A stretch of 32,086 nt of DNA from assembly GCA_002688315.1 (NCBI GenBank), contig NZCN01000001.1, positions 18,662-50,747 of the forward strand, given 5' to 3'. Both the position numbers and the translations under genes were made by a program. Within the stretch, counting starts at the first letter, position 1. Each line of letters opens with the position of its first letter. This DNA comes from Candidatus Woesearchaeota archaeon (GTDB taxonomy: Archaea > Nanobdellota > Nanobdellia > Woesearchaeales > UBA10216). The notes under the pieces are model-generated. The model was not told where the DNA came from. It saw nothing but the letters and a program-made list of their open reading frames with translations, and made no database searches. Of this stretch, positions 2,131 to 4,177 are shown one piece after another.

Positions 2131-3609
2131 ATGGCAGTTGATATTATCTTTGCAACAGTTGGCATAATCATACTTTTGGGTTTTCTTAGCGATATCATAT
2201 TTTCCAGGACAAAAATACCTGATGTTTTATGGCTTATCCTTATCGGTATCTTAATTGGTCCTTTGTTTAACTTTGTAAAACCAAACGCTTTAGGCGAAGC
2301 TGCTTCAATCTTTACCTCATTTGCTTTGCTTTTCATACTGTTTGAAGGCGGCTTGCATATAAGAATAAAAGATTTAATGAAAAGCATGTATGGAGCAACA
2401 ACAATTGCTATTGTTAATTTCATCCTTACAGTTTTAGTCATAACCGGCATAGCAACGTATTTTGGCTGGGACATGACTAATTCATTGCTTCTCGGAACAA
2501 TTCTTGGAGGAACTTCTTCAGCAGTTGTAGTTCCAATAGTAAGAAAACTTCAAATTGGAAAAGAGAACTCTCTTGTTCTCATATTAGAATCAGCGTTTAC
2601 AGACGTCTTATGCATCGTAGCTGCACTCACCATTGTCCAGATAGTCAAACTTGACAGCATCAGCCTTGGAGGAGTATTGAACTCGCTGTTTGGAAGCTTT
2701 GCAATTGCAATCTTTGTTGGTTTAATAGCTGGTTTTGTGTGGATACTGCTTCTGGAAAGGTTTGAAGCATTAAGCAGATCATACATATCAACAATAGGAA
2801 TGCTTCTTATCGTGTTTGGAATAACTGAGTTTGCCCAATCCAGCGGAGCAATAGCAGCACTTGTTTTCGGAATACTTATGGGAAATTCAAGAAAAATATT
2901 ATCTTTGGCTGAGCATGAAGATGAAGATACCTTATCTTCATCTGCCAGAGCTTTTTTCTCTCAAATATCTTTTTTCGTGAAAACATTTTTCTTTGTTTAC
3001 ATAGGCATACTCACAAGCTTAACAGAATTCCGGCCAATTCTTCTTGGATTGCTGATTGCAGTCGCAATATTCCTTATCAGACCAATATCAGTAAAGATAG
3101 CATTTAAGCCTCAAGAAAACCAAAACCCCCAGGACAAACCAATAATGGAAGCAATGATTCCAAAAGGACTTGCAGCAGCAGTTTTAGCACAAGTGCCAAT
3201 GCAGGAAGGCATAGCAGGCTCTGCCAAGCTTTTAACTCCTGTATTTGCTACAATATTTTTTACAATTGTTATAACAACAATAACAGTTTTCCTTATCAAG
3301 CATAACAAATATCAAGGAACAAGCGAATTAATGATTAGATTATTCAATAAAGCATTCAGCAAGACTTTAGCTAAAAAGCAAAGTGACAAAGAAATTATTA
3401 AGAATTTTGAGAAAAAAGCTGCTAAAGTAGCTGTAAAGAAACCTATTCCAAAAAAAGGAAAACAGCTAAAGAAACAGCCTTTAAAGAAAGCAAAGAACAA
3501 TCTGAAAAAGAAAACACAGCAAAAAAACAAGAAGAAGAAAATCAATAAACAAATTGTAGCATTACAAAAACAATTTATTACTCCTGTCAATAAAAAGAAT
3601 AAGCTTTAA
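2131..3609 (+). CDS. Cation/proton antiporter, CPA (NhaP/KefB-like) family
   Basis: A protein of 492 aa. Residues 1-400 form about 12 hydrophobic segments of a monovalent cation:proton antiporter in the cell membrane. Family features include an early LILIGILIGPLFNFVKP segment, the GGTSSAVVVPIVRKL block near residue 130, and ESAFTDVLCIVAAL in the core helix that holds the ion-binding acidic residue. The last about 85 residues are cytoplasmic, highly basic and low in complexity (K, N and Q repeats), an unusual tail that could contact nucleic acid, ribosomes or lipid head groups. AGAGGA lies 5-10 nt before the ATG. The exchanged ion (Na+ or K+) cannot be told from the sequence. Confidence 0.85.
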   Translation: MAVDIIFATVGIIILLGFLSDIIFSRTKIPDVLWLILIGILIGPLFNFVKPNALGEAASIFTSFALLFILFEGGLHIRIKDLMKSMYGATTIAIVNFILTVLVITGIATYFGWDMTNSLLLGTILGGTSSAVVVPIVRKLQIGKENSLVLILESAFTDVLCIVAALTIVQIVKLDSISLGGVLNSLFGSFAIAIFVGLIAGFVWILLLERFEALSRSYISTIGMLLIVFGITEFAQSSGAIAALVFGILMGNSRKILSLAEHEDEDTLSSSARAFFSQISFFVKTFFFVYIGILTSLTEFRPILLGLLIAVAIFLIRPISVKIAFKPQENQNPQDKPIMEAMIPKGLAAAVLAQVPMQEGIAGSAKLLTPVFATIFFTIVITTITVFLIKHNKYQGTSELMIRLFNKAFSKTLAKKQSDKEIIKNFEKKAAKVAVKKPIPKKGKQLKKQPLKKAKNNLKKKTQQKNKKKKINKQIVALQKQFITPVNKKNKL

Positions 3610-3659
3610 AAGACAGTTTGAATTCTTAAGAGGGTATAGCCCCGTAGTGTAGTGGCAAA

Positions 3660-3688
3660 TCTAAGTTAGTCAGTAACTTAGAGTCGAT
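3660..3688 (+). other. 29-nt insertion in the D arm of tRNA-Gln (probable second intron)
   Basis: Without this stretch the D arm reads GTGT-AGTGGCAAA-TCAT, the usual archaeal tRNA-Gln form. The boundaries can slide by up to 2 nt because TC is repeated at both ends. The insertion holds a perfect 8-bp hairpin, CTAAGTTA-GTCAG-TAACTTAG (3661-3681). AATC (3658-3661) can pair with GATT (3686-3689), which may be the central helix of a relaxed bulge-helix-bulge site, but I could not build a textbook one. Confidence 0.65.
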
Positions 3689-3704
3689 TCATGCCAGCCT
3701 TTGG

Positions 3705-3746
3705 AGGAACAAGCCGCGAACCTTTAGTTCGCAAGTACCAGAAGAA
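3705..3746 (+). other. Canonical archaeal tRNA intron, position 37/38
   Basis: A 42-nt intron after G37. CTTT (exon, 3699-3702) can pair with GAAG (3741-3744), leaving three-base bulges GG|A and AA|A at the two splice points, as expected of a bulge-helix-bulge site for the splicing endonuclease. The intron holds a 6-bp hairpin, GCGAAC-CTTTA-GTTCGC. The outer helix beyond the first bulge is weak, so the structure may be relaxed. Confidence 0.8.
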
Positions 3747-3778
3747 AGCTGGAGACGGCGGTTCGAGTCCGCCCGGGG

Positions 3779-4177
3779 CTATCTTTCTAACCTAAAGAAC
3801 TCCATATAAAGAGGGATAAACATAAGAATAAAACTAGCAATAAAGTTGACAATATTGCTCAGTATTGCAGAACTTAAAATCCAAACAATAGTAACTCCAA
3901 TTAGTTTTCCAATTTTTTCGTGATAGAAGAATTTGAGCGTACCAAAATGTATTGCAATCAGAGATATTAATATTGGTAGAATTGAATACAATATAACTAC
4001 AACTCCTCCGCTAAAAAAGCTTCCGTCAAAATCAGGAGGTAGAACAAGAGAAGAAATTGTCCATATAATCAAAAACACAGCTAAAACAGATAAGCTTCCT
4101 GCAACAATCGCAGCTTTGAGAGCGCTCTTATACGTTTTGTCGGTAAATTTGAAAAGCTTAGAAAATGCCCATAACAA
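3779..4177 (-). CDS. Small polytopic membrane protein, N-terminus probably frameshifted
   Basis: The open frame gives 132 aa with three to four hydrophobic segments (AIVAGSLSVLAVFLIIW, VVVILYSILPILISLIAIHFG, LIGVTIVWILSSAILSNIVNFIASFILMF). I do not recognise the family. The TTG at 4177 is a poor start: the same frame continues upstream as another hydrophobic segment (about 4178-4237) with no good start codon. An ATG at 4245 in a different frame lies 26 nt after a TATA box (4266-4275) and opens MAFAIESLVILPFFLYGA before a TAG. A one-base shift would join this start to the long frame, so the true gene may span 3779-4245. Its stop overlaps the tRNA end by 3 nt. Confidence 0.55.
   Translation of the reverse strand: MLWAFSKLFKFTDKTYKSALKAAIVAGSLSVLAVFLIIWTISSLVLPPDFDGSFFSGGVVVILYSILPILISLIAIHFGTLKFFYHEKIGKLIGVTIVWILSSAILSNIVNFIASFILMFIPLYMEFFRLER

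Follow-up and report, generated by a model that had tools for sequence, protein, structure and literature searches.

The only tRNA-Gln(UUG) gene detected in this Woesearchaeota genome is probably functional and most likely (probability about 0.88) carries two protein-spliced archaeal introns, one of them in the D loop with a relaxed bulge-helix-bulge (BHB) motif of the HBh' type. The gene lies in a stretch of 32,086 nt, analysed as a whole and called the window here. In the precursor, D-loop nucleotides UGGC (nt 16-20) would pair with GUCG of the intron beside a 9-bp intron hairpin, giving the relaxed motif. The splicing endonuclease would act at AA^A and at AU^U to release the D-loop intron from between positions 21 and 22, and would likewise cut at 37/38, and RtcB would join the exons into a standard 72-nt tRNA. 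We infer both the cutting of the precursor by this enzyme and the exact cut sites; the genes of the endonuclease and RtcB are both present in the genome.

A tRNA-Gln(UUG) gene with two insertions

The gene was located at 3638-3781 on the forward strand and specifies a 144-nt precursor with a predicted mature length of 72 nt and intact stems. The acceptor stem is a perfect 7 bp (AGCCCCG/CGGGGCT), the D stem is GUG/CAU, the 5-bp anticodon stem CCAGC/GCUGG closes the loop CUUUGGA, and the T arm reads GGCGG UUCGAGU CCGCC with a 5-bp stem. As placed by the fold, exon 1 (3638-3658) holds the 5' strands of the acceptor and D stems and the D loop to A21, exon 2 (3689-3704) runs from U22 to G37 and contains the anticodon UUG, and exon 3 (3747-3781) extends from A38 to the discriminator A73; all are on the forward strand, as are the introns, helix strands and upstream element of this gene given below. 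A possible TATA-like element, CTTTAAAAG, was noticed in the sequence about 30 nt upstream (3604-3612).

Between exons 2 and 3 lies a 42-nt insert (3705-3746) at the canonical position 37/38. It can be drawn as a BHB, proposed from the sequence as CUUU GG^A ... GAAG AA^A, although the minimum-energy fold favours a different pairing there. The second insert, between exons 1 and 2, is a 30-nt D-loop intron (3659-3688) at tRNA position 21/22, placed by the fold and by comparison with relatives. The initial annotation of a tRNA-Gln with two insertions, a 42-nt intron in the anticodon loop and a further insertion at an uncommon site, was thus borne out. The lengths given there for the D-arm insertion (29 nt) and for the tRNA after removal (73 nt) were corrected to 30 and 72 nt, the former by the BHB cutting rule and the uninterrupted D loops of relatives.

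ARAGORN at default settings called no tRNA at 3638-3781; when long introns were allowed, it miscalled the gene as a tRNA-Leu(CAA) with a 70-nt intron. The Rfam tRNA model misaligned on the gene and scored below the cut-off (26.4 of 29 bits). Essential tRNAs in such genomes can therefore be miscalled by standard tRNA finders. The assembly (912 kb, 15 contigs) is 99.7% complete, and its tRNA-Gln start sites numbered two, those of this UUG gene and of a CUG gene (L010). The initial annotation had held that a separate intact tRNA-Gln(TTG), if there were one, would show this copy to be a pseudogene; a genome-wide search detected no second tRNA-Gln(UUG) gene. The genes in the window use 64 CAA and 69 CAG codons. 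The gene should be needed, since the sole other glutamine gene found has the anticodon CUG and CAA nearly matches CAG in frequency among the window's genes, and as the only tRNA-Gln(UUG) detected it is probably functional.

The D-loop motif and its counterparts in relatives

When the whole precursor was folded without constraints, the minimum-energy structure of the D arm was (((...((((...(((((((((.....)))))))))))))...))). Along the arm, the D stem is followed by UAG, UGGC (paired with GUCG), an AAA bulge, a 9-bp hairpin, AUU and the 3' strand of the D stem. The 5' strand of the central helix, UGGC, lies at 3653-3656 (nt 16, 18, 19 and 20) and its intron-side partner, GUCG, at 3683-3686; the helix has two G-U pairs and a moderate pair probability of 0.52-0.67. 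The inner helix of the intron (3660-3668/3674-3682, loop 3669-3673) is the hairpin that had been described as a perfect 8 bp; the hairpin was recovered and proved one pair longer (UCUAAGUUA/UAACUUAGA).

Within each bulge, archaeal endonucleases cleave after the second of the three nucleotides (PMC2738675). The 5' splice site (AA^A) falls in a 3-nt bulge; its 3' counterpart (AU^U) is in an internal loop (3x3) that lies below the intact D stem. With the cut after the second bulge nucleotide, the intron is 30 nt long and its removal would leave UAGUGGCAAUCAU. Two relatives (L031 and L048) have the uninterrupted D loop GGCAAUCA, matching the predicted junction, and excision in this gene yields a standard 72-nt cloverleaf with the same junction. 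The 4-bp central helix UGGC/GUCG and the 3-nt bulge at the 5' site are those of a BHB. A strict hBHBh' has a second 3-nt bulge and an outer helix at the 3' site; here a 3x3 internal loop takes their place, so the motif is a relaxed HBh', a bulge-helix-loop form accepted as a variant of the BHB family (PMC6379350). The initial view that no textbook bulge-helix-bulge can be built holds for the strict motif; however, the relaxed one forms in the unconstrained fold, in a tRNA-Cys of the same genome and in most related inserts.

A comparison with tRNA-Gln genes of relatives, as the initial annotation had proposed, drew on 19 genomes from the family and 145 from the order and gave 141 distinct parsed genes. 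The D region was 4-6 nt long in 108/141, and an intron-sized insert stood at the same place in the other 33. At least two more tRNA-Gln genes, which did not parse (L184 and L257), look D-loop-interrupted too. Among the scored related genes the insert was 14-49 nt long and its sequence varied freely. For each insert, the four exon nucleotides that stop two short of the 5' site were scored for pairing with the four preceding the 3' bulge; 30 inserts were in register and three others from related genes were not. The automatic register placed the insert of the present gene one nucleotide off (1/4 pairs), which the fold-based register corrects. On average 3.4 of the 4 central pairs formed (n=30), with at least three pairs in 28 genes and all four in 15. 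When the 3' strand was slid by 1-4 nt, the means fell to 0.6-2.1 of 4 pairs.

At position 20 the pair was exchanged among homologues: C stood with partner G in 14 of the 30 genes and U with partner A in nine, the two types spanning about ten and seven families, respectively, by manual reading. This is compensatory change in the central helix, with relatedness not fully controlled. Random dealing of the 3' strands among genes gave a Watson-Crick mean of 2.66, compared with 2.97 observed; the observed value was reached in 1/5000 deals, a figure that is not a strict probability because the genes are related and kinship is not fully removed. In folded precursors, at least three central pairs with P>0.5 were present in 20/30, compared with an expectation of 0.5 from precursors in which shuffling was confined to the intron. 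The recurrence of central pairs at the predicted register, and fold counts far above those of shuffled introns, indicate more than chance. Many relatives thus share the insert site and keep the BHB register, and the uninterrupted D loops of two match the junction.

Several related genes had unusual layouts. Very short D-loop introns of 14-15 nt were seen in L207, L236, L274 and L211, one tRNA-Gln gene (L038) had three introns, and another (L049) combined a D-loop intron with an insert near 53/54.

Contacts between the elbow nucleotides G18 and G19 and the T loop are needed in a mature tRNA. This bears on the earlier suggestion that the D-loop insert is kept as an extended D arm of the mature tRNA, with the hairpin standing on the D loop. 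In favour of retention, the hairpin is stable and the remaining cloverleaf folds with it in place. However, the insert pairs G18 and G19, and holding them in a helix would cost the elbow. Relatives keep the BHB register while the length (14-49 nt) and sequence of the insert vary, most related genes have no insert at all, and some show the exact uninterrupted D loop. We therefore regard retention as very improbable. That the copy is a pseudogene or an insertion-disrupted remnant might be read from the failure of automatic finders to call it correctly, but its stems are perfect, both inserts have BHB-like sites, it is the only UUG-Gln gene detected in a 99.7%-complete genome, and the insert site is common to many relatives; a dead copy is scarcely credible on these grounds. 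Splicing of both inserts from a working gene remains the preferred reading.

Other interrupted genes of the genome

The tRNA-Cys(GCA) gene (L026, reverse strand; G000:C1, about 89852-89960) is interrupted at 21/22 by a D-loop intron of 28 nt, with the same HBh' layout as in tRNA-Gln (CGGC UA^A - hairpin - GCCG AU^A) and central-pair probabilities of at least 0.99. A strict pattern for tRNA-Cys with a D intron matched this genome only, and such strictness makes the result no proof of uniqueness. Inserts at 59/60, in the T loop, were found in Arg(CCU), Arg(UCG), Ser(UGA) and a Leu(UAA)-type tRNA (L029, L027, L023 and L024, reverse strands). The predicted BHB helix adjoining the T stem was seen at least partly in the fold of three of the four (0.4-0.7); the Leu(UAA)-type motif was drawn by analogy and is absent from its minimum-energy fold. 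Separately, a tRNA-like sequence from the D arm to the T arm, with no adjoining acceptor stem, was observed at G000:C15:33198-33252 (L028, reverse strand), near another tRNA-like gene whose T loop appears to hold an insert; it could be a fragment, a split gene or a pseudogene.

The rtcB gene (L289, reverse complement; G000:C14:44290-42966, minus strand) has its frame shifted by a 32-nt insert. This insert folds as a BHB with a 3-nt bulge at each splice site (AAGG CU^C - GAUUGC hairpin - CCUU AG^A), and its removal restores HEGYGFPIGG in frame. The same codon is interrupted likewise in four relatives (G001, G010, G084 and G050; L321, L322, L327 and L328) by 29-31-nt BHB inserts, and HxGYGFPIGG or HFGYGLPMG is in frame after removal. 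The central helices differ yet match in each case (AAGG/CCUU, AGGG/CCCU, GGGG/CCCU and UUGG/CCAG), and the outer helix is merely 0-2 bp. A second intron was found in G084, at GIGFD^INCG. When the inserts were shuffled 300 times each, the motif together with a restored frame appeared in 0/300. The rtcB reading frame thus seems to carry strict BHB introns here and in relatives, so that the tRNA ligase mRNA seems to depend on a splicing pathway completed by that ligase itself. In the literature covered, cbf5 is the confirmed archaeal pre-mRNA intron (PMC2738675). An rtcB intron was reported nowhere in the literature searched, and many journals lie outside that search. In addition, RtcB of about ten genomes of the order (among them G094, G131, G095, G120, G146, G127, G144, G102 and G044) had an in-frame insertion of ~1.5 kb, the size of an intein, near profile position 50, giving an open frame of ~1000 aa.

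The splicing endonuclease and known systems

The endonuclease gene is split by an assembly break (G000:C5:34483-34932 and C13:1-165), and the two contig ends share coding sequence. Its product of ~175 aa has an N domain (PF02778) and a catalytic domain (PF01974). The catalytic Y/H/K residues were invariant in 36 homologues. The closest named homologues, from 'Candidatus Woesearchaeota', share 82% identity with it, and the host is accordingly taken for a Woesearchaeon. A single two-domain subunit of about 170-180 aa with this triad is what an alpha4 enzyme has. No second endonuclease gene was found in this genome at E<=10, and matches in 135/145 genomes of the order were nearly always one full-length protein of single-subunit size; this absence of a second subunit was judged by sequence profile, which a strongly diverged beta could escape. 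The L079 homologue, modelled with AlphaFold (pLDDT 83), had its best fold match in Methanocaldococcus jannaschii 1a79 (TM 0.89/0.91). The lone enzyme is alpha-type and M. jannaschii-like, probably a homotetramer, and it is the enzyme that presumably cuts the tRNA-Gln introns.

Efficient removal of relaxed-motif introns has been described only for (alpha-beta)2 and epsilon2 enzymes and linked to the CSL/ASL loops (PMC6379350, PMC12397907), and organisms with alpha4 enzymes have been described with strict BHBs at the canonical site (PMC4090602). ARMAN-2 has about seven extra residues at the ASL site (Y160/K161). In the homologues of the present enzyme, the segment between YG and LSxxEA was 8-9 residues long in 58 of the 62 scored, as in M. 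jannaschii, showing no loop insertion with a lysine near the active site. The initial annotation's idea of an endonuclease with relaxed specificity is thereby sharpened, since only a single alpha-type enzyme was found and it lacks the loops tied to such specificity. Many relaxed introns beside a single loop-less alpha endonuclease across a DPANN order would contradict the published co-evolution rule.

Three explanations compete here: the lone alpha enzyme is itself relaxed, a strongly diverged partner went undetected, or the setting within a full-length pre-tRNA suffices, as has been reported at 37/38 for the alpha'2 enzyme of A. fulgidus. A heteromeric enzyme of alpha and a diverged beta, as in N. 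equitans, would account for the relaxed specificity, and the best PDB match by sequence is indeed the N. equitans alpha chain (3iey_A), which belongs to a relaxed alpha-beta enzyme. However, a similar beta should have been seen, because the N. equitans beta chain matches the present alpha protein at 5.6e-15 (phmmer). The single gene at E<=10 in this genome, the one full match in nearly all of the 135 positive genomes and the closest fold, that of the homotetrameric M. jannaschii enzyme, also speak against a partner, and we consider it rather unlikely. Whether the loop-less, lone alpha4-type enzyme of Woesearchaeota accepts relaxed HBh' D-loop introns appears to us an evenly balanced question; if it does, the rule by which relaxed motifs require an (alpha-beta)2 or epsilon2 enzyme equipped with ASL/CSL loops fails in a large archaeal group.

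Compared with the M. jannaschii alpha4 enzyme (1a79), the protein found here has the same full-length fold, the Y/H/K triad and an equally short segment at the ASL site. It differs in its setting, among many non-canonical introns rather than the strict canonical-site BHBs described for alpha4 organisms (PMC4090602). The D-loop motif resembles the published HBh'/BHL form in its central helix, 5' bulge and intron helix, and in having an internal loop in place of the outer bulge (PMC6379350); unlike in the published cases, where cleavage was efficient only with (alpha-beta)2 and epsilon2 enzymes (PMC6379350), neither enzyme type was found here. Non-canonical tRNA introns are on record in Thermoproteales, N. 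equitans, ARMAN and Asgard archaea, D-loop sites among them (PMC4090602; PMC6379350; PMC11291895). The tRNA-Gln gene therefore adds to a known kind, since D-loop introns were already known. Its D-loop intron is, like those, short, BHB-type, outside the anticodon loop and, as often there, accompanied by a second intron in its gene. The sites known (20/21, 22/23, 25/26, 53/54, 59/60 and others) do not name 21/22 in our numbering, in a list that ends with 'etc.'. The introns described here differ further in their host, a Woesearchaeon with a single alpha endonuclease, and in that the exon strand of the central helix is repeatedly formed by D-loop nt 18-20a.
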